This document shows positions 16,537-59,132 of a DNA stretch of 64,000 bases, piece by piece. Origin of the DNA: Dictyophora rubrovolvata (taxonomy: Eukaryota > Basidiomycota > Agaricomycetes > Phallales > Phallaceae); the NCBI GenBank assembly GCA_029959195.1, contig CP114127.1, forward strand, positions 124,001 to 188,000. The letters are read 5' to 3'. The position numbers and the translations under genes are program-made. Each line of letters opens with the position of its first letter. Within the stretch, counting starts at the first letter, position 1. The notes under the pieces were generated by a model. The model saw only the letters and a program-made list of their open reading frames with translations. It had not been told where the DNA came from and made no database searches.

Positions 16537-17840
16537 GAAGGATTGTTGCGGAAAAATAGATGTTCTTTTGGATGTGTTGAAATAGACGTATTACGTAGAC
16601 TATCGTTATTGCATAAACATGTTTGAATTAGACGTTTTAGGAATGACGAATGACATTGTGGTGTACACGAGACGTATAAGGCACCACTTTAGAAGCTCCC
16701 GGTACTGCGAAAGGTTTATTTAAACGATATGGCATTGAAGAACACATGTATATGGAAGCATACTATAAATCAATTAAACGTGGTATACTCGTAGGCGTGT
16801 GTACAATCATCAGCCCACCTGACAGGTAGATGGATTGATAACGATAACAATATTTGAGTCCAAGGTATCAGAGAATGCACGGTATTGGGGAGATATCCTG
16901 ACTTGGAAATATGATTCGCACATATATCTTTAAATGACGTGACAGACTAGTGGACAGAACTTGAATGTCCAACCTCGCGAAAATCATGCTCTCTACTTCG
17001 CATTACACCGTAGTTTTCCCAACATTGCTTGTCGGAATATATTGTGCTATCGATATTCTCAATCCGACGGAGAAATAATATTCTTACGAAGGAATTATCC
17101 TTGAATTTGCTTCATACCAGTCACGATCAAGAGGACATGACACTTGGGAAGTGGATTCTCAGGCGAAAAAATCTCATAACATAGAACAAAAGACGTATAT
17201 TTTGATATACCATACTTCTTGAGGCCATGTCACTGATCACCTCATGTTGATGAACATCGCTGCGCACGTCGGGTTTCGTCCCCGGGCACAAAAAAAAACC
17301 TGGTAGTCAATTGAAAAAGATAGAAGAGACAAGAATATCGGATAAGGTCCCTGGCGTGTTCTTCGAATGAACCTGGATTACCCACAACCTCCACTATTGT
17401 TGTCACTTCGCGTCCAGCTGCCTTACACGCGGATATGGCATAGCACCAGGCACACGGTGTTTTCTTGGGTGTAAAGTCTGAAAATATATTTGAGACAAAA
17501 AAAAATATGCATCTATATTCCGAATGGAAAACGACCCTAAATAACCTTTTCAGCATGATATGCCAGGCTGACAATTGTACGTGGAGTAATCTCTTATCAT
17601 CACAAAAAATTAGCCTGAAAGAAGGTTCTTATTGTTCTCATCGATATCGATGTTGACAAAAACCCGTCCCCAATTTTATTGTTCGGTGCCATATCACCTT
17701 CCGAGCTTCGTTTCTGGTCAGAGAGACGTTACGACGCGTGACGCACGTGACATCAACTTGCGCTCACTCCTCGTTCATCCCAAGTTCATCCTCAAGGTAT
17801 AAAACCCACGACTTTGCACAAGTAAGTTCCCCAGTTAACC
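16537..17840. other. intergenic block between LACS and FunK1, duplicated at 48.3-49.5 kb
   Basis: No gene. About 16640-17840 recurs in inverted orientation at about 48306-49540; shared landmarks include the hexamer-rich stretch around CACCTGACAGGTAGATG (16818-16834 here, reversed near 49343). It holds the LACS 3' flank and the FunK1 promoter, so the copying event took the LACS tail with FunK1. Short minus-strand frames here, such as 17242-17574, are not supported as genes. Confidence 0.7.
17798..17804 (+). promoter_or_regulatory. TATA box of FunK1 copy B
   Basis: TATAAAA 43 bases before the ATG at 17841. The same box and the following leader (CAGTTAACCATG) are kept in the split copy F at 48342-48348, which supports it as a real core promoter element. 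Confidence 0.55.
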
Positions 17841-20800
17841 ATGTCTATTACAATCAAAGACACTCCGCCTAAAACTCCCTCCCATTCCATAAATCCTAGC
17901 TCTAGAGCAACCGCAAAGGACGTCATGCAGGCCGTAAAGCAAGACTTAGATGGCTCTGTAGTTCTAACATCTAGTGATTTTTTCTTGCGCAACATCCTTG
18001 ACATAAATGACAGGCCTGAGGATCCTTTGCCACATTTGTTGGAAGCCGTAATTGAAAAGAATTACTCCGAGAGACGGTGCCGATGGCGTGACTTTCCTAC
18101 AAACGACCCGGGCCAGTTGGAGAACACTTTCTATGGGCCATTTGTCCGCTTGGCCAATGAAATCGCTGAGAAAACTGTCCAAGTCTTTCCAAAAGACAAG
18201 CACACAGTCAGAGGCAAGTGGATAGATTGCCATTCCATTTCCCCAACGAAGACTGCCGACTCAGTGGCCGATATACGGCCGGATTGCGCTTTTGTTCCAA
18301 ATGCAGATTTAGCAATGGGTCTGGGGAAACAGTATTTCTCTTTGAAAGGAGATGTTTGTCATTCTTTCTCTTTCTCTTTCACCAGGTGACTGATAACACG
18401 AACAGATAGCAGCCGGCTCGGATGACGAGAAGGTATGTGGCCATTCCCCCTTATCTCTCCTAGCACACAGCTGAATCGTGCTTAATCTTTACCTTCCCCT
18501 TGTTTACATCTATTGAACATCATAACGCAACAGGAGCAAGTTGAAAAGGTAGATTCCGTTTATTGCGTTGTTGAAGACCGTTAATTGAGATGTTCATGCC
18601 TATTAGGCTCGTAAGCTTTGGTGGAGCCAGATCGTCGTTGCGGTCGAAATAAAGAGAGCCAAGAAGGAAAACCCATCGGATCAGGATGCTCAATACCGCG
18701 GAGCCTTACCTCAACTTTGCGGGTACATTCGACAAGTCTTTCGGCAGCAGCTAGATAGACGGTTTGCCTTAGGCATCACCGTCTCTTTCGAGAACATCGC
18801 CGTCTGGCTCTGTGACAGATCTGGAGCACTTGGGATGTCCGAAGTTTGTAATATCCACAACGTCAGTGCATAGTTTGTCATTCTCTCAACTATTCCTTCT
18901 AATTAGTGCAACAGGAACCAAGGAATTTTGTTCGCATAATTAGTGCCGTGTCTCGTCTTCCAAGTTATCGGCTGGGATATGATCCTACTATGCAATTGTA
19001 TGACTTGTCTCTCAAAAAATTCCAGTTTTCACACCAAATCCAACGGTCGCAATCCAATCCTCCGCCGCAATTATCCGAAAGCAAATGGTCGTTGACTGTA
19101 ACGGATAACCGGGATTCAAACAACCTGGGCCAACCCGTCATTCATCAAGTCATTCTTGACGGACCACCATTGTTAGCCCGTAGTGCCGAGGTGATGAACG
19201 GTCGGGCTGTTCAAGTGCACCAAGGTTATTTGAAAGAAGATTCGGAGAAATATTACAGGGTGAGCATCCAGGTTTATTTATCTCGGAAAATAACATTCAT
19301 GGGTTGCAGTCTCCGTTAGTGGTAAAGACGTCCTGGCAGCCATTAACGAAGATCAAAAACGAAGGATGCCCGGTTTCTTTTGAAGCCCATTTTTATAGTT
19401 TGATTTCCGGGTTCAAAGACCGAGTTCTTGCTGCATCTGTCATAATGACTAACCATGGCTGGGGTACTCATGACGGCGCCAGTGATGCTATTGCTGTTTC
19501 AACGATGAGTTATGTTCGCAAATGTGCTCAAGCGGACATCAATAAAGCTAAAGAAATTAACCGTAAGATCAAGGAGTCGTTGATTAGGAAAGAAGACTTG
19601 GATGAGAGAAAAGAACCCTTGGCGTTCTTGGCGTTTGGCAATGCTACGACTGTTTCAAGTGATCATTTATATTTTGCGCAGGACCCTTCGGGATTGGCCG
19701 ACCGACTTCAAACAAGGATCGTTTTGAATGTTTGGGGCTATCCGTTGAAATTCTTTACGTGTAGGGAGGAGTTGCTTCAGAATATTAGAGACACGATTCA
19801 AGGTCAGCTTTATTAATTTTGTTGAAGTTCAACAAGATAACGATAACTGTAGATCATTTGAAAATGCTTGAATCTGGTGTCTTGCATAGAGATCTAAGTG
19901 ATGGGAACATCATCATGCAACCGATGAACCCAGAAAGCGGAGTTGATATCTATCACTTGGTTTCTCGAACGACCGGAAGATTGATCGACTTGGACCACGC
20001 GAAAGGAACTGAAAACAAGAAGACCGTTGGAGAGATTCCGTCGTCAGACCTGGTTAAATTTGAAACGCAAGTTCTCAGGTCCCGGTTTCGTAACACTCCA
20101 GTCACGGAAGATGCGGTAGCGCGGGGACTGACGTTTCTACGACCTATGGAACTGGGTATATATTGTGATGCAGCAATACGGTTCGACGTTATGAAGTCAA
20201 AGTCAGATGAAGGTGACTGGACCGCGGAGGATCTCGGATGGAATGCTGTGGTATGAAAGGGTGTCCTCCAAATGTTCATCAACTAATCACATACAGGGTC
20301 TGCAACCGGATTTTGACTCACATACTCCTGACGTTGTAAAACGGACGGTAATCTCCTTCCATATCCCATATCGACACAACGTTTATATTGTCTCCTTAGG
20401 GCACGATTCCTTTTATAAGCCATCGGTTGATAATGCATCGGACAAGACCAGATACGCATAATGCCATCCATGACATGGAATCACTCTTTTGGGTTCTTAT
20501 TCACATATGCCTTGTTAGAGAGTCCGGAGGGGGGCATCGACCGAAAGATCCTCCTGAGGAACCTGAAACGCCTGAAGAACCTAAAACGCCTCCTGGAACG
20601 CCTAAGGAACCGGAAACGCCTGAAGAGCGTAAAAAGCGAGAAGAACGTGAAAGACGTGAAAAGGAGCGTAGAAAGATAAAACAGCGGAAAACCTATATCG
20701 CAGAACTCTTTCATTCTGATCAGACATCCATTGGCGCAAAAAAGGCAAATTATTTCGACCCAGATTCAGATGAACCTTTTGAAGATTTACTCAATCACAT

Positions 20801-30642: not shown

Positions 30643-33048
30643 TCACAATTGTTGATATTGATCAAGTTGACGGAGCCCCGAGATCCCTTGATCTAATATA
30701 CTGAATAGGCCGTCATAAGTAGCTCGGCCAAATGGGTGAGCTTTGGATTTGCTCGTCTGCCTAGTCTTAATCACATAGTCCTGGAGGTCATCAAAAAACT
30801 GGACTAGTGGAGCATTGAACAACTCAAGTAACGGCCTTCCGAACAATCGTACTGGGCTCCTGGCGAACTCTCGTGCATCACATATCTTGTCCAAATCGAC
30901 GTAGCCGAATAGGCCTTTGAAACTTGTCTTAAGCTTCTTGATTATCGCTTCATCGGGGATGATGATATCCTGAAGGGGCCGCTTAACATATGCTAAACGT
31001 CGGAGCGTTGCATAGTAAATAACCCAAACGAATGATTCAACGTCGTGGTAGACTTCATGTTTTATGGCTCGGTTATCAGTCATAGCCTCAACAAGTTCGC
31101 AAGCCATAAATTGAACAGTTCCCTGTACTAATATATAAGCACAGATACAGTAATTAGAGCCTCCACATACCGTCATAGGAGCTCCACGCTGAACGGATGA
31201 CCAGGCTGTGTGGGTCCTTGTCGTTGGAGACATCATATATCCACCAGGCGTAGGAATCGGAGGGACAGCTATTGTCCTCTGTGCTTCCAATTGCTCATCT
31301 TCTATTCTAGCAAATTCTAAATCGGTCAGAAATCCTCTTCGCTCATCAGGCACGTCAGAATTTAAAGATAGTAAGAGGTTGCCAGCGCTGACGTCACGGT
31401 GCAGGATCTTTGCATCAACGAGGAATTTATGTCCTATAATTCATGATCAGAAGCGTATGATAGTGAAAATTGAAAAATCATACCAGCCAGCGCAGCTCTT
31501 ATACCAAGAAAGAGTTCCAAAAAATTATCGAATTCCCATAACGGACGTCCTATCGTCTTGAAAAAAACGCGGTGTAGGATGGTCGTATCATTCTCCTGGT
31601 TTCCTGACATATCCCGTAGATTCGCTGCAGTCAGTTTACGACTATCCGGAAATGAAACATCTCCCCCAATGGAGTGTTCAACTAATCCCTCAGGTCTTCC
31701 AAACGACCCTTGCTGCTGTTCCCGTGATTCTAGTTCAAAACGACTCTTCACGGTCCTCACATGCTCATAAATAAGCGATTCTTGCGTTCGACCGCTTCTC
31801 CTCCAAGCAGATTTCATAATTAAGAGCGACGCCGCAACACTCTGTGATGAATTCGGTGAACTCGTGACTGTCCAGACATTCGTACCGCGACCCATCAGAG
31901 ACAGCGACATCCAAATGGGAAGTCCAATTGTGTAATACGTGGTACCGTAAAATTTGATTGAATATGTAGGGTACTTGGCAAGTTTTTCAACTTCTTCTTT
32001 GCGAGAGCGATGACTAGATGAGATGCTGTTCTGCGAATAAAGCCGGCATGCTTTGGAGAACGAATTGTCGAGAGGAAGTTGCTTGACATTAGGGTCCATC
32101 CCCAATTCGTACGGAGTCATGTCACAGGATAGACGTCTGATAACACGAATAAAGAGTTCGAAGTTCCCCCACATGTCTTCAATCTCGGAAAACTCGACCC
32201 CGTCCCTATCAAAAATAGCCACACAGAATTTCCTGCCAAAGATGAGCAGACCAATGGAGAAAATTTGGAATGGTCTTGCAGACATATGAAGTCGAGCATA
32301 ATCTGCAGCTTGAGCAGTAAAGTCCGTCGGTGTGGGTTGCCGTGCACCGACAACTTGGAGACCTTGGTTTGACGATGCTTTCAGCTCAACAAACGCCAGT
32401 CGACGACGCCATAAGCGTTTGCCACCGTTAACTTCGTACGTCGGGTTCCTTGGACCCACCACTTCGCAGACAGTGAAATCCAGGATAATTTGGGGGAAAG
32501 AGAATGTATCACCCTCGGATGTAAGCTTAGAATCTTTAATAAAAACCCACTCTCTTTCGAATGTGGCGGGTCCAGACGCCCTGATCATTTCAAAGATGGA
32601 ATACTATAGTAGTTTTCAGAAAATGGTCAATCGATTAATAAAAGACGGTAAGACTAACAAGAGGCTCCATCATCAATTTTTCTCGTCTTTTATTAACCTC
32701 CTTATAGTTTGTCCTTTCCATTTTGGCCTCGGCGTATATGTTGGCTTCCTCCTCATCCACTTCTTTGGGCGATCTACGGTCGGCAATGGCAACGAGTTTC
32801 AAAAGAGTTTCTTTAGACTCGGCCACCTTGGGGTTGGTTTTCAAAGAATTGATGCAATTCTCGACTAGATTGTCATCAACTGTATTGATACCCAGACGTT
32901 GAAGAACATTGGGACTGTTGAAATGCATACTCCCCTTCAGTTCTTCCTTCAAAAACTGACGAACGTCTTTCGCATTGTATGAGGCGATACCGGGAGCACT
33001 GGCGAAACTTTGAGTAGCTGCACCAGGTCTCTGAGGAGAGAGTTCCAT
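30643..33048 (-). CDS. FunK1-family protein kinase, second subfamily (copy D)
   Basis: Apparently intact four-exon gene, about 720 residues. Exon 1 starts MELSPQRPGAATQSF and ends EKLMMEPL; an intron GTTAGT...CTATAG leads to YSIFEMIRASGPATFEREW. N-terminal domain: LWRRRLAFVELKASSNQG, FQIFSIGLLIFGRKFCVAI. Catalytic part after an intron near 31440-31485: KILHRDVSAGNLLL (catalytic loop), FLTDLEFARI (DFG equivalent), then after another intron GTVQFMACEL (P+1 loop) and HDVESFVWVIYYA. It differs clearly from the copies around 17841-21419, so belongs to another branch of the family. The first in-frame codon of the long frame is GTG at 33054; the ATG at 33048 is preferred. A broken paralogue begins at 63530. 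Confidence 0.88.
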
Positions 33049-34503: not shown

Positions 34504-36245
34504 TCAAATCCCATGACGTCTCATTCTTTGCGAGCTTTCTTGGGAATAGGCATCTTTGGCGAAGTGTGGGTTTGCCGAGGAACTGCGAACTGCGGAAGGA
34601 TTCGCGCGACCGGGGCTGGGAGTCGTTGGGACGGAACCTGATACAACATTTGACACTGGACGATTTGATGAGGAAGGTGAGGGAGGGAATGAAGTAGGAA
34701 GACAATTTGGAGTGGGCGCGGGGGTAGGAACGGAGGGATAAGGATGGTTTGTAGCGGCCGTGGGTGTAGTGTTCGACGAAGGAGCTGAAACACGGTTCGG
34801 AGCAGCTTGACGGAATCGGGGAGTTGGTTGCGGGACCTGCACCCGACTCGCCGGGGACAAAAGGGAAGGAGGAGGCACTGGGGGAACAGCATTAATGGAA
34901 GAGGTATTGCCGTCTTGGGTATCCGGAATCTTGCAGATAAATTTATAATCTTTAGCCCGACGAGCCAATTCTTGCTGAATGACTGGTGTGTCCCTATCTT
35001 CATTTTGAACTGCTGAGAGCCTTAGGGTATCATCTATAATCTTAAGGATGTAATGGTGCACTCGGTAATACTCATAGGCCTTGAAAGTATAACTGAGTAT
35101 GAGTACATTTCGCCAACGTCGCAACAAGTCCTTGAAAGAGTCGAAATAATCGTGGACGTAAGTGAGCAAATCTTCGAAACGTTCACCCGAGTCTATGTCG
35201 AAATAAATTTGCTTGCTTGGGCCAATGAGATCCTGATTAGAGTAGAAGAGCCTTGTGATAAGATTGTTATACTCCTTGCGCTTTTTAGACCCTTCACTAA
35301 GATCGGTCCGTCGATTTCTTCCTCCAGACTCTCTGATGAGACATATGTGAATAAGAACCCAAAATAGTGACTCCATGTCATGGATGCCGTTATGCGCTTC
35401 GGGATATATTCTCATCAACCGATGGCTTATGAAAGGAATCGTGCCCTGAGGATGATGAGTGTTTGTCGATATTCCATATGGAAGATAATTACCGTTCGTT
35501 TTACAACGTCAGGAGTATGTGAATCAAAATCCGGTTGTGGTTTCTGTATGTGATTAGTTGACGAATAAAGTTTGGAGGACATTTTTTCATACCACATCTT
35601 CCCATCCGAGATCCTCCACAGTCCAGTCACTTTCATCTGACTTTGACTTCCCAACATCAAACCGTATAGCTTTGCGACAATAACTTGTTATGTTCCCGAT
35701 GTCCGCAAACTTGAAGGCTTGTGCCACAGCTTCTTCCGTGATTTGAGTGTTATACACCTGAGCACAGGCGTAATATGAAGTTGGACAATGTCCGGGGACA
35801 GACCCGAGCAACCAACGGTCTTCTTTTCTTCAGTCCCTTTTGCGTGGTCGAGGTCAATCAATCTTCCGGTCGTTCGAGAAACCAAGTCGTAGACATCAAC
35901 TCCGCTTTCCGGCTTCATCGGCTGCATGATGATGTATCCATCGCTCAGATCTCTATGCAAGACACAAGCTTTAAGCATCCCCAAATGATCTACAGTCATC
36001 GTTATTTTGGTAAAAACCTCAACAAAATTAATAAAGCTGACCTCGAATCGTGTCTCTAATATTCTGAAGCAACTCCTCCCTGCACGTAAAGAATTTCAAC
36101 AGATAGCCCCAAACATTCAGAACAATCCTTGTTTGAAGTCGGTCGGCCAATCCCGAAGGGTCCTGCGCAAAATATAAATGATCACTTGAAGCAGTCGTAG
36201 CATTGCCAAAGGCCAAGAATGCCAAGGGTTCTTTTCTCTCGTCTC
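34504..36245 (-). pseudogene. FunK1-family kinase, 5'-truncated (copy E)
   Basis: Matches copy B from LAFLAFGNATTASSDHLYFA to the C terminus: VNVWGYLLKFFTCREELL, VLHRDLSDGYIIMQP, RLIDLDHAKGTEEKKT, HDMESLFWVLIHICL, FKAYEYYRVHHYIL and a Ser/Pro-rich tail. It lacks the Glu/Pro/Lys insert of copies A and B, having instead a short SEGSKKRKEYNN segment, so the insert is a variable feature of the family. Homology stops abruptly upstream near 36245. Exon 3' ends and the tail are shifted in frame relative to B. Confidence 0.82.
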
Positions 36246-38907: not shown

Positions 38908-39354
38908 TTTTTTTGTAAGGGTTTTGATTTCGAGAGGCTGTGGTGTATCAGTTAAGTTTTTGGTAGTTTGAAACTCTGCTTTGAACCAAAAATCAGAACG
39001 TTTCCTTATTAGGAAGATTTTGGTGCGCGACAGCGGTTAGTATCTTTGCTTTTGTTTTGCCGCAATGCGATGGTTCGATTCCTCTCTTTGTCGATCTTTT
39101 TTTTTTGGAACCTCGCACGTGACCACGTGACCCGAGACCTTCATTTTTCTTCAGGTTCAAACCCCCATCCCAATCATGTTTGTTTCTCCAAGATACTATA
39201 TTATTAATCTGTAAATTACGCTATATACATAACATATCCTGTTACTGGGGTCCACTGTCCCAATTAGGCCCGTGCCTTAACGAATCTGCGATCGGTTTGC
39301 CAAGTCGGATATATCAACTAGAAACACTAAAAATAGGCTTCAAAAGAAACCAGG
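38908..39354. other. intergenic with a degenerate tRNA-like stretch
   Basis: Around 39028-39110 there is a GGTTAGTATC...GGTTCGATTCC pattern followed by a T run, but the stems do not pair well enough to call a tRNA gene. Nothing else is supported. Confidence 0.4.
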
Positions 39355-40728
39355 GGTCCTTTAGTTTTGATCTTCGTTAATGGTTGCCACGACGTCTTTA
39401 TCACTAACGGAGACTGCAGCCCATGAATGTAAGTGTGTTATTCCATGAGAAAAACCTTGATGCTTACCCTGTAGAATTTCTCTGGATCCTCTTTCAAATA
39501 ACCTTGGTGTACTTGGACAGCATGACCGTTCATCACCTCGGCACTACGGGCTAACAACGGTGGTCCATCAAGAATGACTTGGCGAATCACTGGTTGGTGC
39601 AGGTTGTTTGAATCCCGGTTATCCGTTACAGTCAACATCCATTTGCTTTCAGTTAATTGTGGTGGAGCTTGTCGGATTTGGTGTGAGAATTGAAATTTTC
39701 TGAGGGACACCTCATACAATTGCATAGTGGGATCATATCCCAGCCGATAACTTGGAAGACGAGATATGGCACTGATTATGCGAACAAACGTCCTTGGCTC
39801 CTTTTGCACTAATTAGAAGGAATGATGGATAGAATAACAGAATATGCACTAACACTGTGGATATTACTAACTTGGGTCATTCCAAGCACTCCAGATCTGT
39901 CACAGAGCCATACGGCGATGTTATTGAAAGAGAGGGTGATCCCTAAGGCAAACCGTCTGTCTAACTGCTGCCGAAACACTTGTCGAATATACCTGCAGAG
40001 TTGGGGTAAGGCTCTGCGGTATTGGGCATTCTGATCAGACGGGTTTGCCTTCTTAGCCCTCTTCATTTGACAGCGACGACAATCTGGCTCCACCAAAGTT
40101 GACGAACCTAACAGGGATGAAGATCTCAATTAATCTTCAACAACACAATAAATGGTATCTACCTTTTCGACTTGCTTCTGTTATGTTATCATGTTCAATG
40201 GTTGTAAACAAGAGGAAGGTAAAGATTAAGCAAAGTTCAACCGTCTACAGAAGAAGTAGCCATATACCTTGTCATCGTCTAAACCAGCTGCCATCTATTC
40301 ATGTTATCAGTCGCCTGGTGAAAGAGAAAGAAAAAAATGACAAACATTTTCTTTCAAAGAGGAATACTCTTGTCTTAGACGCAATGCTACATCTGCATTT
40401 GGAATGAAAGCGCAATCCGGTTGTATATCAGCCACCGAATCGGTAGTCTTCGTCGGGGAGATGGAATGGCAATCAAGCCACTTGCCTCTAATTGTGTGCT
40501 TATCATGAGGGAAAGCTTGCACAGTTTTGTCGGCAATTTCATTGGCCAAGTGGACGGATGGCTCATAGAATTTGCTTTCCACATTCTCATCTGTAGGAAG
40601 GTCACGCCATCGGCGCCGTCACTCAGTAGTTCTGGGAGATCATGTCTTCCAACGGGTGCAGCAAATCCTTGCTGTCGTTTATACCAAGAATGTGTTGCAA
40701 GAAAAATTCGCTGGATGTCAGAACAACG

Positions 40729-40732
40729 GAAC
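40729..40732. repeat. target-site duplication, left (GAAC)
   Basis: GAAC directly before the left TIR, matching GAAC after the right TIR at 48190-48193; copy B shows a single unit at the corresponding place. Confidence 0.75.
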
Positions 40733-40764
40733 CTATGGTGTACATTTCTGGTCAGCTCCAATTT
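40733..40764 (+). repeat. left terminal inverted repeat (32 bp)
   Basis: Begins CTATGGTGTAC and ends GCTCCAATTT; identical over 32 bases to the reverse complement of 48158-48189. Confidence 0.9.
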
Positions 40765-41366
40765 TGTGCCGGCCGATGACCGGCACAGGGTCTGGAGTAT
40801 CCAGGATAGTTACCTATCACATCTGGTAGATCACACTGTATTTGTAGTTTAAAGTTTATGTATTTCTGTTGGCGCTATAGCCTAGTTAACTACCCTTGCA
40901 TGTGAGTGGTTGTCTAACTGATGTGTGCCGCTAGTTCGATCTGTGCTATATGCAATTTTTTTTACTTTTATTGGCATATTATACATACACATACTTTTTC
41001 TTTAGCTAAACACCTATAGAAAAAAGCCGCCCCCCCCCCCAATCCAAACAGATCCCAGCACACCCTTCCATCACCCTACTGGTCACCAGATTAGGTGCAG
41101 GGGAATCCACCCATCAAAGGCCATCAGGCCCCTCCATTGTGTGTGGCCACAGATCCCTAACAAGCCCCACACAGGATCAGGTTTCAGCCCTGCAGACTCC
41201 GGGTGGTTTTTAGGTGAGGTTGGGGGGTGCTGGGCATGGTGGTAGTTGGGGGATGTGTACGCGGGCGAAGTGCCCAAAATTTCAAACTCCGCTGCTGTTG
41301 CATATCGCGCGTGCGTGGGGAAATTCAAACTCTGCCACTGTTGCACTTCACACGCACACCTTTCCA

Positions 41367-43056
41367 ATGCCTAGGGCCACCAGAAAGTCAGACACACAGA
41401 AAAGAAGGATGAGGCAATGTAAGTACTATACCATATACTGTATGCCTTGCTCAAAATCTGGTAGTTTTGAAGCAGTTGTGCTGTGAAACCAACCTGGTTA
41501 CAGAGCTACTTCAGGGAGAGATTAGTGAAGCTACCTTGGAGAAGTCGAAGGTATTAATTAGCAAGTATGAGCATGGGATGCCCAAAATTCACAAGGTAAT
41601 GTCTGCATTTTCCAGGTTATTTTCCATACTTCCTTTCTATCTAGCTCCCTGATCTCCTTGGGCTCATTTCGGAGCTTCCAACTTCCGAAGGCCAGCATGC
41701 CTATAATGTCTACCAGAACACTAAGACCCAAGCTAAGCGAAAGCTATATGACACTCGCCGGCATTTCGTAAGCTATTCCTGCTCTTTAATGTGGTTTCTG
41801 ACTATTTGGTTTCTGACTATTTTTCAGCATAGGGGCTTAGGTCTGGGCAAGGCCCCTGTAGATACTGCAATGATGTATTCAGAACTTGGAATTGAAGTTT
41901 GGGTGCGTGAGTGAATAAATAAGCCATGCATCAAACGCGGTGTTTTTTTGCATGACCCAGGTCTGGAATATTTAGAAGCTGATGTCAGGAGCCGTGCACC
42001 TCCAAAATATACAACTGTCGGGAATAGCCCAAATTGGCTCCGAATTCCTGCTGAGAAGAGTGCTATTATCCGGAACCAAGAAGGTGAGTAAGCTGCTATT
42101 GCAAATTAATACAGTACTCAGCTTTTATTAGGTTCAATCCAGCTGGTGGTATTGCACAACCTTTGTAGCAATACCGACATCCTTAAGTCAGTGAATTCTA
42201 CAATTGATGAGGCTGTATATGACCGTAACAATGTCCGAGTAAGCAGTTACTATTATATTTATCACTTATTTTTGAGAATATTACAGCCTCAGCATCCAGA
42301 CTCTTTAATTCAGGCTGGCTATAATGCTGGCTCACAAGATCCTCCAAGGTTTTTTAGACTTGTCAATAACCTTCAGAATAAAGTAAAAAAACTGCCAGAC
42401 GATGTTAGAAGAGATAAAGACTTAGATATTATTAGTGCCTTTTCACTCTTTTGGCATCTTGTTCATGCGCATGTTCCAGCTGAAATTATCCAGCATATCG
42501 AGGCGAAGTTAGAAGAGTCAGGAATGCCAGAGATGGCTGGGAAAGACAGCGAAGGTATATCTGTTATTTTTTATTCCTGCCAGCTATATCTTTATTTCAG
42601 GTACATCTGGATATCAAATCACTGTAGCTGGTCAGGACTATATATTTCCCTTTGTTTATCGGGCACCATCTGAGGGATATCTTGCTAAGGGATATATCTC
42701 GTAAGTCTAATTGTAAATTTATTTACTTTGGCTGAAGAATTTATCAGTTCAACACATACTGATCGTTGCTGGGCAGACTTTGCTTTTGCCTGGCAAACTG
42801 GTCACACTCAACTCACAAGCAAGCTACCAACTGGAGGTAACTTCGTAGATGTGACACTTCAAATTATTGTTGATTCTAGTCCTGATACACTTTTAATTTT
42901 TGAACCCGAATATCTTCATAGTACTACAATATCAGTACCTGAGATTTCTTGACATGGACTAGTTATAGCTTTTTCAACTTGTATCAAAGAAGCTTATAAC
43001 CTTGCTGTAGAGAAACATAGGGCTGGTGAATCCCCACTCCTTTATCCATATAATTA
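41367..43056 (+). pseudogene. transposon-borne protein with 2OG-Fe(II) dioxygenase-like C-terminal region
   Basis: Multi-exon gene starting MPRATRKSDTQKRRMRQ. Exons read KVLISKYEHGMPKIHK, GLGLGKAPVDTAMMYSELGI, RAPPKYTTVGNSPNWLRIPA, VVLHNLCSNTDILKSVN, HPDSLIQAGYNAGSQDPPRF, DKDLDIISAFSLFWHLVHAH and EESGMPEMAGKDSE. The C-terminal part reads FPFVYRAPSEGYLAKGYIS, then STHTDRCWADFAFAWQTG, GGNFVDVTLQII, DTLLIFEPEYLHSTT and IAFSTCIKEAYN. HTD followed at about 58 residues by a His in a beta-rich setting fits the HxD...H metal triad of the double-stranded beta-helix dioxygenases (TET/JBP or similar), but this is inference from pattern. I recall the overall sequence type from uncharacterised basidiomycete proteins. 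One in-frame TGA (about 42951) lies near the C terminus. Confidence 0.6.
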
Positions 43057-43076
43057 ATTCTATGTAATATAATATA

Positions 43077-44990
43077 TTAGTTATCTTCATCATCAGTAAA
43101 AGAAGCAATGAGACGACTTTGTTCTGTTGTTTCTGAGATATCATCATTAGTTTCATCCAGATAAGCCAACCCAAAATCTAGCTCTGTATCACTATCACTA
43201 TCCAAGTTTGCCACACCTTCATTCCTGCCTCTGTTCCTATTCCTACTTCTGTTTTCATTCACATTCTTGTTCACATTCTCATTCGCATTTTCGTTCCTGT
43301 TCCCGTTATCGAATAAATCATCGTACATAGGAATAGGTCGCATATGAACTACTTCACCATTGTATACAGTTTCTGACTGCATGGCTAGAGTGATACTGGG
43401 TAATAAGGCCATTTCAGAATCTTCTGGCTCATATGAAAGCAGTGGAAGAGGAAGTGCGAATTGTAAGTTGATAAAAGACTCGGACATTCCAGTAAATATT
43501 TGCCAAAAATTGGATATTGATATAGGTTCGTAATTTTGATGATGGAATAATTGATCAGTATGTAAGGCAAATTCAGATGGAACTAACGATTGGACTGGAT
43601 GATCAGGTGGGGCCCAAAGTTGGGCAGCTCTATCAATAAGATTATCAGAAACAGTAACCTATTAAAGCTAGTTGAAAATTTTAAGAAATATAATATAAAA
43701 ATATTCCCACCCGAAAATCCATTGAATTATCATAATTCTGAGGCTCATAGAAGATTAAATCTGGAATGCCATGGGGGAGGACTTTATTGGGATCTTTCCG
43801 ACATTTGGATCGGTTTCTTCGATCTCGGTAAATATTGAGCTCAGCTTGCAACCATGGAATTATAAGCCATCGCCAAAGTAATCTAGGCTAATAAATAATT
43901 TACCTTTGTTTCAGATTTCATAGTATTACTCACGTTTGTAAGTCATTGAGTGGATTATACATATCTTGATTCAAACCATAGTCTAGAGCATCCTCAAACC
44001 CTGGACTCCAGTGCCGATGAATCTGACTCCACTGGATCTCAGCTTTGATATTTGTCTTTTTAGGTTTGAAGCGATGCTGTAGAGTGCCTTCTAAAGTAGG
44101 ATTGAGTATCTGTCGTAAGGTAGTTTGGGCATTTGCAATACCAAAGTTTTCTGTTCCTCCATCACTTTGAGTAAGAAGAGGTACAGCTTTAAAAATATTA
44201 GAAATTGTGGGCCCAGTAGAATTAAAAAGCAACCTACCCTGTAACTCGCATACTACCTCTAAATAGTAGTTGCAAATCAACCATGGGTTTTTATTAGTCC
44301 ACCATATCTTGGTCCAAAGTAATCGCCCACTAAAGACTTCAGTTCCTAAATGCAACCATAGTCCAAATCGCTTCCATTTATCATGCTGATCGACTGCCCA
44401 TATATGATTAACTCCAGCTGCCAGAAAAGTCTGCTGCTTGAATCGTCGCATTTTTCGTTCTTTTACTAATTCAGGTGCATAATTGTGAAACCACTCCCAA
44501 ATTTGTTCTCTAATGAATTTGGTCATAAAAACTATTTGTAAGGGAGAAGCTAAAGACAAGCCTGGGTATACGAATATTTTTCTCAACACGAATGTGATCC
44601 TTGAGAGCTCTGATACCAATGTATGGATATCATACAAGAATACTCTGAATAATATCATTGAGTTCACCATTATTTATTATTTTTCTTGTTTGTTTAGCTG
44701 AAAATAAACCCCACTCTTTTCGTCAGCGATGATAGGTTTCTATACTATGGAGAGTTATAGCCTAGTATCTCAGAATAAAAGTATAGCAGCTCTACCTGAT
44801 TGTATAGTTAGTGTCTTTGATCTTGTCCTTAATATAATGAACACCCTCTTCATTGCTTAATCCCAATTTCCATACATAAATAAGATGTTGCTGTAAGATA
44901 TTATCAGGAACTGGTAAAAGAGATTAGTAAAACTTCGCTACAGTAGGTATTCTCCTTACCAGTGTTATGCTGATTTCGTTGTCGTGGCAT
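43077..44990 (-). pseudogene. DDE integrase-like transposase
   Basis: Multi-exon gene from MPRQRNQHNT to SFTDDEDN. N-terminal helices (ILQQHLIYVWKLGLSNEEG), then the integrase core: VNHIWAVDQHDKWKRFGL (first Asp), EVFSGRLLWTKIWWTNKNP, LLTQSDGGTENFGIANAQTT (second Asp) and TNIKAEIQWSQIHRHW, where a Glu 41 residues after the second Asp sits in the place of the NxxxEExxW motif, giving a DD40E arrangement. Downstream: VLPHGIPDLIFYEPQNYDN, then VSDNLIDRAAQLWAPPDHPV, and a C-terminal Asn/Arg/Glu repeat (NENANENVNKNVNEN) with an acidic end. This is the rve-like integrase core found in many basidiomycete proteins. It is the only transposase candidate in the element and lies between inverted repeats, so it most likely mobilises it. 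Some exons contain stops, so this copy may be inactive. Confidence 0.75.
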
Positions 44991-45091
44991 TGAAACAAGT
45001 ATTATAATGGAGATAGAAATCCTCGGCCAATATTGACCGAACTACAATCGTTGACACCTGTCTCTCACAGTATCATCCCTCTTAGATCACT

Positions 45092-47910
45092 ATGCCTCTC
45101 CCAGTTGAATTTACAGAACAAACTGAAACTGTACCCTGTGGCCGTGCAAGTTGCCGTAAACTTGTTCCAAGATTTCAGTTACAGGAAGTTATAAGTGAGG
45201 CAAATGGAATGGTTAGTCACTTTGTGTGTCCTGCATGCTATAAGTATTATAATGGAAAAACTGCTGCTGGTATGTCCATAAGTCTTTATAATTGGGTAAA
45301 ACAACTTATTGCTATTTAAATATAGTAAGAAATGCAGGGGCTATAGGAAGCTCTGTAACTTTGTTCGAGCCAAGGCAAGATATTCATGTAGGGGCAAATC
45401 TCACTCAAAGAAGTTGTAGGTTCTGAGTCTTTTACTACTATTCTGATTAAATAAACTTTTTTTATAGATGAAGCTACACCTCCAGTTCATGCAGTTGGGG
45501 CTGGAATATCAAACTTCCAGCAATCTTTCTCCGAACCATCTATTCATCGGAGCCCCCCTCTTGCTATCCAAAGCAATCAGTTGCAATATTCTGGAGAGTC
45601 TCAGCCACAAGTACTCGGATACAGTCTTGTCCATAGTCAGCTATCTCAGCAATTTAGTAGATATGAAGCCCGTAGCCAACAAATTCATCGTTCATAAGAT
45701 ACATTCCCTCTTACTGTCAAACTTGCTTATTGGAGTGATAGTGAAGGAAAAGTCATCGTTATCAATGTAAGATTTATCTTATTATTAGCTTTCTAAGTAT
45801 TTAGGATTATCCAGCCTGTTACCGAAACCTGTGGCCAAGTTGATATGCATATTGACTATACTGAGCTTCGGTCCCTTACAATTACGACGATTACTCCACG
45901 ACTTGGGACTTGGTTATCGGGATTCAGCTTGAATCTAGCATTACTTGAGTTACGAGACAAGGACTATATTGCTATCAAACTCTTACCTCATGACTGTATC
46001 CAGCATTATTTCCTCACAAGCTCTACCTCTAAAGGGATTGTAAAACTCAAGTCTAAAAAACTAGAGTTACAACTTATTATGCCTTATATGACTTTCCTTG
46101 CAATCGAGGAGCATTTGGAGCATTTGGATTCATCTATTTAGAATGTGCACTCTTTTTCTATTGCATCCACCTCGCAGACTCAGAACTCGCAATCTCAGGA
46201 GTATTCAGAAATACAATCATATGAAGGCAATGAAAAGGGAAAGGGAAAGGGAAAGGGAAGGAAGAAGGAGAAGGGGAAGGGGAAGGGGAAGGGAAAAGAA
46301 AAGCAGAAATCTCAGAGTGAAAGTAAAGGCAAAAGTTCAGAGAAATCATTAGTATTATATACTCCTAAAAAGGTAAGGACGATACTAGCTAAGATTAGTA
46401 TTGAAGTTTAAGGTCTTTATTTCAGATAACATCTATACGAAGTACCCACCCTGAGACTAGATCAGCATCTGGTCAAACTATACTCGATATTGTAGACACT
46501 CATGAATCTCAGTCAGCAGTAATTATATCAGAAATGCAAGGACTTTCTCCTTTTAAATCTGGAACTAAGTGAAAGGTATTTTAATTCTAAGAAATATCAT
46601 TGCTAAAACTATAGCTAATTTTTGAGTATAAGGCAGCAGACTTAGATGAAAGTGATAAAAATAATAAAACTCCTTGAGGAAGAACAGCAGTTATATTTGG
46701 ATCTCCTGACTTCTCGCTGCTGGATAATGCTCTAAAACAGCAAGCTGAATCCAGTGAAGCATCTATTTAAGCTGCTCGTAAGTTGAAATAGTATTGCAAT
46801 TACTTAAATCTCAAATCTCATCTATATACTTAGTACCAATCGGAACTCTGTACCTTGTGAATGTATTTCTCATTCTAAGGCAATCATTAACCGAACTCCT
46901 TTCTAATCCCACCTTACTTAATCCTGGCCAGTTCAAAGAAGGAGGTATCTTCGGTACTCTTGATATCAATTTCAAGAAAATGATCGGAGATATGTCAGGC
47001 TCATTCAAAACTACACATATGGGATGCCTTCAACCAAATGAAACAGGGGTCAAAGGAGGTTTTCCTTGGAAGATAAACATTGCTATAAAATGACCTTATA
47101 ATTCCAAATCTAACAATGATCCTAGATCTATATTAAGCTATAAAAAAGGCCGACGAGGAAAGCCTACAACTCAGCGATATGTTTTTGGGACTGAATTGCA
47201 TGAAATAATCTAGGAAATTCGATGTCTTATTTGGGGCGATGCTTTAATGGATCTTGTTTATAAATTCATAGAACAGCAGGTAAAGCAGCAAGGCCAACCC
47301 CCTTTCTTGATTCCTACCATGCAATTTGTTTGTTTTGCTGTTATCGTAGCAAGATCTTCTAAAAATATAGCTCTTCTTGCCGAAGAATTTATCGAAGGGG
47401 ACTATCTGAAGTATATGGACAATCGTCTTCCAGTTCCTCTCAAGGATATAACTGATCCTGATGAATTATATCGTGCAAATTTCTTGGCTTTTTCCCAGCA
47501 TGTTCAGTGGAAGAAAACAAAAGAAAGAGTTTTTGTAACTGATTTTCAAGGTATGTTTACCTATAATTTATTACTATACAATATTTTAAATAGCTTGCTA
47601 GGGAACAATACTTTATTGACAGATCCTCAAATTCTTACCCATCCGTAAGTTCTACAGCTAGTATTAACTAGAAAGGCAATTTTCTAAATGTATTGGATTT
47701 AGCGATCTTGGTGGAAATCTTTTTGGGCATGGAAATATTGCAGGAAGCTTTGTTAATTTTCCGAAGGAACATATCTGCAATCAATTCTGTCAATTTTTTA
47801 ATTTAGGCCCACCTGAAGAGCTGGATGGAAACAAGTCATTGACAGCAGGTGCTGGAGATAGTGAGGATGTTCCTATTCCTGTTCCAGAAGAAGAATGCGA
47901 AACAATATGA
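45092..47910 (+). pseudogene. alpha-kinase domain protein with Cys-rich N terminus, carried by the transposon
   Basis: Starts MPLPVEFTEQTETVPCGRAS. N-terminal Cys pattern CGRASC...CPAC suggests a zinc-binding module. A Gln/Ser-rich region, a beta-rich region (LRSLTITTITPRLGTWLSGF) and a Lys/Gly-rich linker (46200-46330) follow. The C-terminal part matches alpha-kinases (eEF2K/myosin heavy chain kinase type): LAEEFIEGDYLKYMDN, AFSQHVQW, VFVTDFQG, then after a small intron NNTLLTDPQILTHP, FGHGNIAGSFVNF and EHICNQFCQFFNL. The TDFQG...DPQI and GNxxxxF...CNxxC motifs are the nucleotide/metal and zinc-binding signatures of the fold (family knowledge: eEF2K has DIQG, DPQIHT, CNxIC). Several in-frame stops, some of TAG/TGA type reachable by C-to-T from Gln or Arg codons, show decay. 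Confidence 0.78.
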
Positions 47911-48157
47911 TGTGTTTATTTGTTAATAATAACTCTATACTTTCGATAATTTTCCTGTAGCAAAGTTTAAAAAAATTGAGATCATTTTACAAGATATCTT
48001 GTGCCTATTATTAATATTTATTTAACATATGGTGGTATATATAATCTAACTTATTGTATCGAAACTTGTTTGTTGGGACTCTAAAAAATCGGAAAATCCT
48101 ATAGGTAGCTTAAAGTATCTATCAAGCCGAAGTATCCCGAGCTTAAGCAAAAGTGCC

Positions 48158-48189
48158 AAATTGGAGCTGACCAGAAATGTACACCATAG
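48158..48189 (-). repeat. right terminal inverted repeat (32 bp)
   Basis: Ends GTACACCATAG at 48189; reverse complement is identical to 40733-40764. Followed by GAAC. Confidence 0.9.
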
Positions 48190-48193
48190 GAAC
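48190..48193. repeat. target-site duplication, right (GAAC)
   Basis: Matches GAAC at 40729-40732. Confidence 0.75.
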
Positions 48194-48305
48194 TGTCCAG
48201 GTCTTGCTTCATGGCCTGCATGACGTCCTTCGCTGTTGCTTTTGAACTGGCAATGATAGATTGAGAGGGAGGCTTAAGTGGAGTGTCATTGACTGGAACC
48301 AACAT

Positions 48306-49540
48306 GGTTAACTGGAGAACTTACATGTGCAAAGGTGTGTCTTTTATACCTTGAGGACGAGTTTGGGAGGAAATGAGCGCAAGTTGATGATGCATGTCAC
48401 ATATGTACGTCACGCATCTTACTCTGACCAGGAACGAAGCCCGGAAGGTGATATGTTACCGAACAATAAATTGAAAACAATCAAAAGCTTATAAAATCAA
48501 TATCGATAAGAACAATAAGGAACCTCTTAGTTACAGGGTAAATTTTTGTGAGGACACTAAGGGATTACTGCACAATTGTAAGCCCGTATCATGCTGAAAA
48601 GGTTACTGAGGGTTGTTTTCCATTCAGAACATAATAGATACAATTTTTTGTCCCAAATACATTTTCAGACTTTATGCCCAGGAAACTCCGTGTGCCTGGT
48701 GCCATGCCGTATCCGCATGTAACTTGGCAGTTGGACCCAAAGTGACAACAATTATGTTATTGGAGGTTGTGGACAGTCCAGGTTCATCCGAAGAACACAC
48801 CAGGGACCTTACCTGATATTCTTTCCTCTTCTATCTTTTGTTGTTTCAATTGACTAAAGATTTATTTTTTTGCGCCTGGGGACTAAACCAATGCGCGGCA
48901 ACACGAGGTGATCAGCATGGCCTCAAGAAGTTCGCTTGCTCTGATATGGTATGTATATCAAAATGTACGTCTTTTGTTCTATTGGACGACCCTGTTATGA
49001 GATTTTTCGCCTGAGAACCCACTTCACAAGTGTCATGACTTGTTTGAGGCAAATTCAAGGATAATTTCTTTGCAAAAATATTATTCCCCCTTTGGCTTGG
49101 GAAGATGATTGATAGCACAATTTATTCCAACTGCCAATTTTGGGACCCGAAACTACGGTGTAATATCGATGGAAACGAAGTAGAGAGCGAGATTCTCGCG
49201 AGTCTCAACATTCAAGTCTGTCCAGTTTCCATTCTTGTCACGTCAAAGATATATGCAAGAATTATATTTCCGAGCCAGGCTCCCCAATAAATAATGTCTG
49301 ATACCTTGGACTCAAATATTGCTATTGTTGTCAACCCATCTACCTGTCAGGTGGGCTGACGATTGTACCACTGCGCACACCTACTAGTAATGCTTCCATA
49401 TTATGCAGATCAATCATCAACATGTGTTCTTCAATATCAAACCATTGAGCAATTGTTCAGAAAGACCTTTCGCCGTGCCTGGAGGCTGGAGCCTCTGAAG
49501 TGGTGGCTTATATGTCTCATGTACATGTCTTACCCAAATT
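48306..49540. other. duplicated LACS 3' flank / FunK1 promoter block
   Basis: Inverted copy of about 16640-17840, upstream of FunK1 copy F. Includes the TATA box at 48342-48348 (minus) and continues to the LACS 3' flank equivalent (49440-49540). The LACS coding end itself is not present. Frames here, such as 48613-48816, mirror non-coding frames in the partner. Confidence 0.7.
48342..48348 (-). promoter_or_regulatory. TATA box of FunK1 copy F
   Basis: TATAAAA on the minus strand 37 bases before the ATG at 48305, conserved with 17798-17804. Confidence 0.5.
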
Positions 49541-55058: not shown

Positions 55059-55461
55059 TGTTGAGGACTGGAACGGCTTACACGGAGATCACGTGGAAAT
55101 AGACTAATTAGCAATGGCGTGTTTGGTCAGCATTTGACTATATTGCAATTAGTATTTGATTCGTATTGAGTGCAGTTTCTCGCCTTTCCTTCATACTTAT
55201 TAGACACTTAAGTCCCTCGTTCCTGCTTACTCATAAACCATGTATATAATAACCAATAGTTAAACAAAAATATCATCAGAGAGAGAGTTTCCCCCCATTT
55301 TTCGCAACTTTTCCCTCAGTTTGAGCCTTAAGAAATATATCTTCTATCCATGGATTATATTATACAATTCTCTCTATCTATCTAAAAATCCCTTATTTTC
55401 CCTCGACACACATAAACACTGGTTCCCTGGATCTCTGCGTACTCCTGAGCGGCGCATATCA
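55059..55461 (+). mobile_element. solo LTR (403 bp), second copy
   Basis: Begins TGTTGAGGAC, ends GCGCATATCA, flanked by GTTT on both sides (55055-55058, 55462-55465). Near identical to 21953-22356. No internal coding region of the same element follows. Recent. Confidence 0.75.
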
Positions 55462-58400
55462 GTTTCATGGTGGCATCGGTGAGATCGTTTTCCAAAAAAA
55501 TTTCCACAAGACCCCACACATACAGTTGTCAAAATCGTTCCCAACAACTCTAATTGTGATTGTATTCGACTTGTCTTGTCGCGTTCTGGGTCTTCAGGTT
55601 TTACCGCGCTAACCCCATCTTTCCTCTGAATTGCTATTTCGGTTGCTTTGTTAGTTCGTTGGTTTCGTTGATTTGTGGTTCGTTGTTGGTTTTGTTGGTT
55701 CGTTTGTTGGTCTCGTTGGTTCGTTTGTGGTTTATTTGTTGAGTCATTGGTTCGGTTTGTTGGTTCGTTTGGCTCGTATCATCATATCGTGTCGTTATTG
55801 GTATCGTGGTTTTCTGTGGCTCCATGCCGATCCCTTGTGCGGCCTGCTATTGGTTTTCTTTGGTCCCTTGCTCTGGACCTAGCCTTGTTATCTGGTTTGC
55901 ACTAGCTCCATGAGCAAACCTTTGGAATTCTTTTGTGCCACAACTCCATCCCACATTATTAGCTTCCACCCACAAGCGGTCCACTCTCATCAACCGTTCT
56001 CACATTTCCTGAAAGAAGAACTATTTTACCGCACTTCCCTCCTTAATATTGATCAAACCGTTCGCCTAAAGATCTGTTGGGTTGAATCAATTTGCTTTTC
56101 TTCATCTGGTATTTTCTCTGAAAGGGTAGATATCGATTTAGACTCACCTCTCATGCTGGATATTTTCTTGGCGGGATTTGAGAACCTACAACGCTTACAG
56201 TTACATTTCGCATCATCAGTCGATCCAACCGTCGGTTTCGTCGAATATTTCCAGAAGGATCCCCTACATATTCTTGTCTGGTACCTTCAACTTCCCGACC
56301 AGAAAGAATCTTCCGTGCCTCTTAGCTCTTGGCTTTCATGCAAACCCGTTCTAAATATCATTCAATGATGAATCCAAACTCCAGTTCATCGAACGACATG
56401 CAAGACGGCCCCACGCACAACGACTATATGACCATAATGCAAGAACTTCGTGCCGAATTAGCCTTTCACCGTAACAACCGTCCTCAAGAAGCTGTCCCTG
56501 TTTTAGGTAGTTCCATATCTCTCTTTCGCGGGGACATACAGGAAGATGGTTTTGAATGGGTTTTGATCACAGACAAATCTTTCACGGAGTGGGGATGGAA
56601 TAATGATAGAATATGCAACTATATTAAACATTGCTTAAGGGATGATGCCTTGGTGAAGTACAATGAGATTGATCCGGTTACCCGTGCAAGTTGGCCTGCT
56701 TTCATGGAATGTTGGAAGCATTTATACCCTCCTTCCCCCAAATCCAACTCCTTGATGAATGCTCTCAACAAGTTCCAATCACAAAAAATCGATGCTTCCC
56801 AACTTTTAAACCCTTCCCTTTCACCTGCTGGTAAAACCTTCTGGGAGCTCCACAAATTTGTGAAGAGGCTTTTGCTATTGGGTTCGCGGGTTACTGGAAT
56901 GAATGATGTTTCAAAGGGAATGCTGGTGTACAGGAATTTACCCGCTGTCATTCAAGACCGTTTGCCTCATTATGACTTATCAACAGAACCATCTTTGTCT
57001 CGATTATGCGGTGACCTGATGAATATTGATGGTCAACAATTGGCTGATAGAGCAAAAACTGTTGGTTTACTGGAGAAACTGGATGCCCAAACCATGAAAT
57101 TATCAGCTCTTCAAAATCAAGTGGATGTGCTCAGGTCCTCTCGATCTCTCCAGCGCCAAGGGGAGAACTCTGCATCTCCATCAAACTCACTCACTTTTCA
57201 AACACCCTTATCTCAAACCCCTTCTATCATCGCTCGAGCCCCTCCAACCTTTCCTCACAATGCAGAGGGCAAACAAACTTACGCACTTGCAGTAAAGAAG
57301 TGGCATGCGGATAACGGCGATAACCCTCCCAGATGGGACAACCCTTACCCATTAACTCCAGGTTCGCCGATGGCCGGTTCACTCGAATGCTGGAAATGCG
57401 GGAGCTTAACGCATCGTAGTGGTCAACGGACACTTTGCAAGGAAGCGGAGGCTTTACCTCTTAAAGAATACAAATATCACTGATTTGTGGGGATGAACAA
57501 AATAAGTTTTCCGAATGATGCTAAGATGATGAACACTCTACCAGATACTACCCGCACCAGTTTACCTCTCCCTCAAAACAGCAATTTTTTGAACAAGGCT
57601 CTGCAGGCGATCCCAGTCAATTTATTAGCCAATAGTATGGATCCTACATGTAACTATATTGCACATAGCCCCGACTTTTCCCTTTTCACTCCTTACGGCA
57701 ACAATCTCATTTTTTCAGGTGATGTGGATTTTTCCTCTTTCAAATCTACTGGTTGTGCTGGCGGAGGATATGGCAGTGAAATCTTTTTTGAAGCAGGAGG
57801 TGGATACGGCTGCAACTCCACCATAGAACAGGGAAACAACTTGGAGGGAGTGTGATGCGTGGGGCACATCTCTCTCCACCTGTTTTGTGTCAACCCTATA
57901 CAACTTTTGTCCTCCAACCTCAAAACTCGAATCATCAACCTCTTTCTCATAGATCTTCTCCTGTAAACAATCAATCAAACCAAGAACCCAATAGAATTTC
58001 TTTACCCTCGTACTTGTGTCATGACCCTGTCAAAGTTCCACCATCCACTTTTTGGATCCAACCCCCTGGCAAGCTATTGAACCAAGGCAACCAATACCAT
58101 GTTGTAGAGTTATTCAGTCCTCGCAAAGACAACACTAGATTCTTACAGCCCTTCACCACAAAAGTAGACATCATGCACAAAGCAGCTGTGTGTTTCAAAG
58201 CTTTGATAGATGATGGAAGTGGCTGTATTGCTATGGACTCATTAGTGTGGGCTAAATGGGAATGGGCATTGGGACCCTTGTGCCCATCACCAGTCGTCGC
58301 ACGTGCTGCAAATGGAGCTTTAGTAAAGTCTAGAGGAAGGATCAATGTCAGATTAAACGTCGCGGGAATCACTACTTTCTGTTGGATGGAGGTCTTAGAC

Positions 58401-58726
58401 ACTAATAACAGTTTTGAGGTAATCCTTGGAAGGCCATGGTTAGGTCGCGTGAAGGCTATCCACGACTACAGTAAAGATGTCATTTACTTTGAAGATTTCA
58501 ATCATATTGTCCTACAGAATTTATCCCCTCCAATAGCACCCCCGAACCCCTCAGCCATCAAACATCCTACTATGAAGTCTTCATTGTCATCAGCAGAGAT
58601 CCCAAGGGAAGAACCTTCAAGTTCATCACTGATGTCTATTCAAAACTGCTTGACCTCACAAAATGAAGAATTTATAGGCAGAGGAGATCCCGATTTTGAT
58701 AGTGCCACAATTAAAGATAGGGAGAG

Positions 58727-59132
58727 TGTCAGGGTACGCTAGCATTGTCCCCTTATTTTTCTACATTTATCTTCAGTTCTGGTCTATTTTATTTATTTCC
58801 ATATTTCTCGTATTCTATCCCATCTCTTGCATTTCCCTTTCCTTCTGTATTCCCATTTTTCCTTCAACAGGCGCTGAGCGCCTGTTCTCATCAGAGCCAT
58901 GGCCTAGGCCCCAGCTAAAAGTCCGGGACCAGTGCGTATCCGCGCCCAGTCCATGAACCAAAGGCCGCATATGGCCTTCACTGTTTTTCATAGTATATAG
59001 TTAGTAGCTCTAGAGGAGGGATCCCTAAGTTTGTTCTCTTAGGATCCCCTCCCTCTAGGTGAGTTAGTATTATTCCTAGAATATATCTTGCTTAGGATCC
59101 CCTCCCTCTAGTCTGAGAGAGTAGCCCTGACA
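58727..59132 (+). mobile_element. 406-bp LTR-like element, copy 1
   Basis: Starts TGTCAGGGTACGC, ends GTAGCCCTGACA: 8-bp inverted ends with TG...CA. Flanked by GAGAG/AAGAG, one mismatch in five. Inserted in the gypsy fossil between protease and reverse transcriptase parts. Non-coding; the frame inside recurs in other copies because the copies are homologous. Confidence 0.75.

Follow-up and report, generated by a model that had tools for sequence, protein, structure and literature searches.

A decayed DNA transposon of probable IS3EU kind with an alpha-kinase gene and a putative oxygenase gene in Dictyophora rubrovolvata

Introduction

DNA transposons of the IS3EU kind generally have TA..TA ends and a target duplication that is usually 6 bp long, according to the accessible part of PMC10045372. 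For fungal IS3EU, the accessible part of PMC12730594 gives a 6-bp target duplication, terminal inverted repeats (TIRs) of over 30 bp and ends of the form TAYGG..CCRTA. The same text reports that fungal DNA transposons of 11 lineages carry TET/JBP genes, and proposes that these genes serve escape from methylation-based silencing. All TET-bearing IS3EU families described there share one plan, in which the TET/JBP gene lies between oppositely oriented transposase and alpha-kinase genes (Kojima 2025, PMC12730594). Within that portion of the paper, such families are reported only for Tuber indicum and seven species of rust, and IS3EU is absent from its list of five TET-bearing lineages in Agaricomycotina.

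Here we analyse an element within a stretch of 64,000 bases (42.9% GC), referred to throughout as the window. A preliminary description of this DNA had presented the element as its best candidate for an undescribed system and had tied oxygenases to KDZ elements only. Its central observation, a DNA transposon with an alpha-kinase gene beside a DDE-like transposase gene, stands. The claim of novelty for the plan does not, since both the transposase/alpha-kinase arrangement and TET/JBP genes in IS3EU are already in print in the accessible text of PMC12730594.

Results

Ends of the element and its insertion site

The element is bounded by a perfect inverted repeat of 33 bp (40732-40764 and 48158-48190), of which the preliminary description had recognised 32 bp; counted from TATGG, the repeat is 31 bp long. 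With up to three mismatches allowed, the 32-bp core is found nowhere else in the 64-kb window, and 100 shuffles gave an expectation of none. The features that define the ends and the insertion are as follows.

40728..40733, no strand: left target duplication, GGAACC (from the sequence)
40734..40764, + strand: left TIR, with TATGG as the end of the element (the perfect repeat spans 40732-40764)
48158..48188, - strand: right TIR, with CCATA as the end of the element (the perfect repeat spans 48158-48190)
48189..48194, no strand: right target duplication, GGAACT, with one mismatch to the left copy (from the sequence)
16662..19401, - strand: the empty site, a paralogue of the disrupted host gene that lacks the insertion (from flank alignments)

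The first point to note is that the window itself contains the empty site. The host sequence on either side of the element aligns to the paralogue on the opposite strand, 39322-40733 with 19401-17952 at 81% identity and 48201-49525 with 17945-16662 at 73%, and when the flanks are joined with a single copy of the duplication the alignment is gap-free at the junction. This paralogous site demonstrates the insertion independently of the inverted repeats, and the sequence between the TIRs is a real DNA transposon insertion. The frame interrupted by the element is homologous to the open frame 17826-18389, itself without a Pfam match. A FunK1-like label for the interrupted host gene is a weak one, drawn from the neighbouring frame 19184-19816, whose Pfam row is below the cut-off.

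The target duplication can be read in two ways. GAAC, reported in the preliminary description, is indeed a perfect 4-bp duplication; GGAACC and GGAACT form a 6-bp duplication identical at five of six positions, which places the ends TATGG..CCATA at 40734 and 48188. Agreement at five or more positions was seen in 0.54% of 200,000 random 6-mer pairs drawn from the window. Ginger elements have duplications of about 4 bp, and the perfect GAAC would suit Ginger or another integrase-type superfamily that duplicates 4 bp; the empty site is equally long whichever reading is taken, and is compatible with either. We nevertheless favour the 6-bp reading, because it yields exactly the ends and duplication length given for fungal IS3EU in the accessible text of PMC12730594, as well as the TA..TA ends given for IS3EU generally in that of PMC10045372. 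Its cost is a single mismatch at a CpG-type position: a G follows the mismatched base in the right copy, and loss of a methylated CpG would produce the observed letter. In addition, an alpha-kinase neighbour is reported for IS3EU in the available part of PMC12730594. We regard membership of Ginger or another such 4-bp superfamily as very improbable, and use the 6-bp reading with TATGG..CCATA ends in what follows.

Several other features of the window were recorded. Of ten long frames compared with Pfam, five matched nothing; three matched Pkinase_fungal, and the other two matched a fungal transcription-factor domain and a reverse transcriptase, respectively. The Pkinase_fungal matches lie at 30643-31440 (E 1.3e-17), 34504-35508 (E 5e-7) and 19184-19816 (E 1.6e-4, below the curated cut-off). 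Together with further repeats of this kind, both direct and inverted, at 1.4-2.6, 20-21, 24-25 and 35-36 kb, these three frames appear to form a group of FunK1-type kinase genes that arose by duplication. Such an expansion is in keeping with an agaricomycete host. Inverted duplications pair 138-1372 with 14752-15986 (99% over 1235 nt) and 1399-2084 with 20262-20947 (97% over 686 nt); to judge from these 99% and 97% pairs, the left part of the window contains a recent inverted segmental duplication. A further inverted pair, 22013-22356 and 55059-55402, is 98% alike over 344 nt at a distance of 33 kb. Gypsy-like retrotransposon frames (reverse transcriptase, RNase H) occupy 56326-60809, with repeats nearby at 58.7-63 kb.

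Genes of the element

All three multi-exon genes claimed for the element were located wholly between the repeats. Their order is TIR, third gene (+), transposase (-), alpha-kinase (+), TIR, with the following coordinates.

41367..43057, + strand: third gene, nine exons (exon model by eye; HxD...H motif; TGA at 42950, with the frame open beyond it to 43055)
43077..44990, - strand: DDE/integrase-like transposase gene, six exons (D134, D210 and E251; in-frame TGA at 44632; some exon junctions provisional)
44991..45091, no strand: interval of 101 bp between the divergent start codons of the transposase and kinase genes (coordinates of gene models)
45092..47910, + strand: alpha-kinase gene (Pfam and PDB matches; seven in-frame stops; exon limits provisional)

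The 101-bp interval is presumed to be a shared promoter of the transposase and kinase genes. The third gene and the transposase gene are convergent, with 19 bp between their ends. Ahead of the third gene, the left end of the element (40765-41366) has a GC content of 0.49 against 0.385 for the whole element, and holds an imperfect (76%) direct repeat of 34 nt. Short tandem repeats code at 43218-43289 for an Asn/Arg-rich segment of the transposase tail, and at 46234-46296 for a Lys/Gly-rich segment within the kinase gene. Comparison of the three element proteins with the window by tblastn gave, outside the element, only rows at E 0.54 or worse.

The transposase model has 536 codons. It contains a D, D, E series in exon 4, with spacings of 75 and 40 residues and in a plausible context, which bears out the integrase-type character claimed for it to that extent; a family match was absent in Pfam, PHROGs, NCBIfam and PDB. 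One junction of the model uses an AAG acceptor, and an alternative choice of intron might bypass the TGA, though a stretch that looks conserved would then be lost. PDB rows at E 0.18 and worse, for this protein and for the third gene product, were dismissed as chance. Searching the transposase core against a plasmid collection returned nothing at E 1 or better, and a profile of two bacterial IS3 proteins gave no alignment with it. The AlphaFold model of the core, made without an alignment, had a mean pLDDT of 39.

The identity of the alpha-kinase, on the other hand, was confirmed by its profile and database matches. One uninterrupted frame matched Pfam PF02816 with E 9.3e-11 (42.6 bits), and the C-terminal part, with X at the stops, did so with E 2.7e-15 (57.4 bits), both above the cut-off of 21.3 bits. 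The best PDB match was eEF2 kinase (E 3e-6). Weak zinc-binding Pfam rows in the first exon were both below cut-off. The seven in-frame stops are at 45695, 46139, 46570, 46675, 46768, 47091 and 47211; those at 47091 and 47211 fall within one long, otherwise open frame leading into the Pfam match, and exon limits near several of the others are provisional.

The third gene has eight introns, all GT..AG and 46-60 nt long, and 395 open codons up to the TGA at 42950, followed by 34 further open codons. Because the frame stays open past this TGA, a premature stop is more likely than a natural end. The preliminary description had called the gene dioxygenase-like. None of the Pfam, PHROGs, NCBIfam, PDB and fold searches supported this, and what speaks for it is an HxD...H motif, noticed before testing, formed by H331 (42755), D333 (42761) and H385 (42917), with HTD at residues 331-333. 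AlphaFold models of the last exon, made without an alignment, had a mean pLDDT of 69 for the best and 44-52 for the other four, and a Foldseek search with this poor single-sequence model gave no meaningful fold match (best E 0.68).

These results would be expected if the third gene were a gene of the element with some other function and the motif were accidental, the more so as the pattern was composed after the sequence had been seen. Against this, the H, the D, a GG, a hydrophobic strand and the distal H follow the order of the oxygenase class, and the pattern occurred in only 4 of 200,000 shuffles. The TGA falls 11 residues past the distal H385, and in such oxygenases 2-oxoglutarate binding usually lies near that point after the distal His. 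Moreover, published PE-type TET/JBP proteins are likewise too diverged for ordinary searches, with HHpred E values of 1.4 and 19 in the accessible part of PMC12730594. On balance, an accidental motif seems unlikely, and the third gene most likely encodes an oxygenase of the Fe(II)/2-oxoglutarate type, an activity suggested by the motif.

Of the PE, AG and PU types of TET/JBP, the first two do not describe this putative oxygenase. It has HTD in place of the HxE of the PE type, and by an ungapped count Trp at H+5 and Ala at H+11 in place of the Gly/Ser and Asp of the AG type; in CcTET, the positions following HxD are Gly at +5 and Asp at +11, as given in the available text of PMC12730594. On these residues, and on the ends of the element, a Kyakuja-like identity was rejected.

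A further question is whether the third gene belongs to the element at all. The element might be an IS3EU into which a host gene was captured once, as a passenger that does nothing for the transposon. The position of the gene is unlike that in the TET-bearing IS3EU described in the accessible part of PMC12730594, and a recurring association was seen in no relative, although the collections searched were of viruses, bacteria and archaea and are hence uninformative for fungi. However, the intron-rich structure and low GC3 of the third gene (0.36) resemble those of the other element genes (kinase 0.29; transposase 0.33, an approximate value computed on an earlier exon model that was later corrected) and not the three host transcription-factor frames (0.43-0.44). 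Codon-usage correlations of the third gene (0.60 and 0.67, against 0.60) gave no clear separation from host genes. We consider capture of a passenger to be possible, if somewhat doubtful, and continue to treat the third gene as a gene of the element.

Decay and CpG loss

The kinase gene is clearly broken by stops, the transposase gene is probably broken and the third gene probably shortened. As modelled, this copy lacks a full-length kinase and probably also a full-length transposase, and moving it would need transposase from an intact relative.

In 42 overlapping tiles of equal length from the rest of the window, the observed/expected CpG ratio ranges from 0.57 to 1.04; in the element it is 0.47. 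The interrupted host flanks have ratios of 0.69 and 0.61, the paralogue 0.96 and the Gypsy region 0.55. At sites where one host copy has CpG and the other TpG or CpA, the loss is in the interrupted copy in 49 of 77 cases (left flank 28/46, right flank 21/31; p 0.022). The controls were unbiased, both for GpC (24/43, p 0.54) and for other transitions (78/173, p 0.22), the latter running in the opposite direction in the right flank taken alone (28/77). No smooth trend of CpG with distance from the element was found. The CpG depletion of the element and its surroundings is thus consistent with past CpG methylation, without being proof of it, and the element may be natively low in CpG. The TpA/ApT ratio is also raised in the element (0.89, against 0.68-0.76 in the 42 tiles); a RIP-like cause was considered, for which the direction of the changes could be counted only with an intact relative.

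Search for relatives

Relatives were sought in collections of viral, bacterial and archaeal sequence by six scans with the proteins or the TIR, and none was confirmed there. Viral contigs were scanned with the third gene, the transposase, the kinase and a 23-base core of the TIR, and bacterial and archaeal genome contigs with the transposase and the third gene. In the five protein scans, 2, 4, 6, 18 and 27 stretches fitted the peptide pattern, of which none passed tblastn. In the literature searched, we found no paper with this gene arrangement.

Discussion

Taken together, we think it probable that the element is a decayed cut-and-paste DNA transposon of the IS3EU kind, with an accessory kinase and a third gene that is probably an anti-silencing oxygenase. 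Since the transposase matches no family model, the assignment to IS3EU rests on the ends, the duplication and the gene neighbour. The ends, TATGG..CCATA, conform both to the general TA..TA and to the fungal TAYGG..CCRTA; the perfect repeat of 33 bp is longer than 30 bp, like those of TET-bearing fungal IS3EU; and the alpha-kinase gene is opposite in orientation to the transposase gene.

How such an element might work can be sketched from these parts. The DDE/integrase-like transposase would bind the long TIRs ending in TATGG..CCATA, its catalytic role being suggested by the D, D, E series, and the insertion demonstrated by the empty site would have been made by cut-and-paste with a stagger of 6 bp, the preferred length. 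The alpha-kinase gene points away from the transposase gene, here over 101 bp, like its counterparts in the fungal IS3EU described so far; it probably belongs to the element as an accessory gene, the target of its product being perhaps the transposase or chromatin proteins. The putative oxygenase of the third gene would act on methylated DNA, against methylation-based silencing. Phosphorylation combined with oxidation against silencing, the function put forward in the preliminary description, may thus still apply, its oxidation half having already been published for relatives.

More tentatively, a probable agaricomycete IS3EU lineage might have acquired an oxygenase of HxD form that is of neither AG nor PE type, independently of the lineages in rusts and truffle and at a different place within the transposon, where it would pair with the resident alpha-kinase against silencing, and expansions of fungal alpha-kinases might largely be transposon cargo. 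The alpha-kinase family is highly expanded in rusts and absent in Microbotryomycetes, according to the accessible text of PMC4469406. We hold this wider proposal to be possible rather than likely. Should the third gene prove to be an oxygenase, IS3EU would have acquired such genes at more than one place, apparently in mushrooms too, and this would support the idea that escape from silencing has been selected for repeatedly among DNA transposons of fungi. The divergent transposase/alpha-kinase unit also raises the question whether alpha-kinase annotations in basidiomycetes denote transposon genes and not host signalling genes.

The comparison with described systems may be drawn as follows, within the accessible parts of the papers cited. 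The TET-bearing IS3EU of rusts and Tuber indicum (PMC12730594) share with this element the ends, the long TIR, the opposite transposase and alpha-kinase genes and the presence of an accessory gene. Their duplication is of 6 bp, whereas that found here is identical at five of six positions and has a perfect 4-bp reading as well; and their TET/JBP gene lies between the transposase and the kinase, whereas the putative oxygenase gene lies beyond the transposase. Styx of Zymoseptoria (PMC10853768) is a comparable element of ∼7.9 kb, with a 36-bp TIR, 6-bp duplications, an IS3EU-like transposase and degenerate copies that are mobile. An IS3EU origin has been suggested for it, but the others of its four genes have GATA, CCHC and DUF3577 domains, and the text available from that paper does not mention an alpha-kinase. 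Kyakuja elements with an AG-type TET (PMC12730594) are, like this one, mushroom DNA transposons bearing an oxygenase gene (putative in our case), but have 7-bp duplications, CA..TG ends and no TIR. Thus, the kind of element is itself known, and the novelty lies in where the third gene sits, in its class and perhaps in the host.
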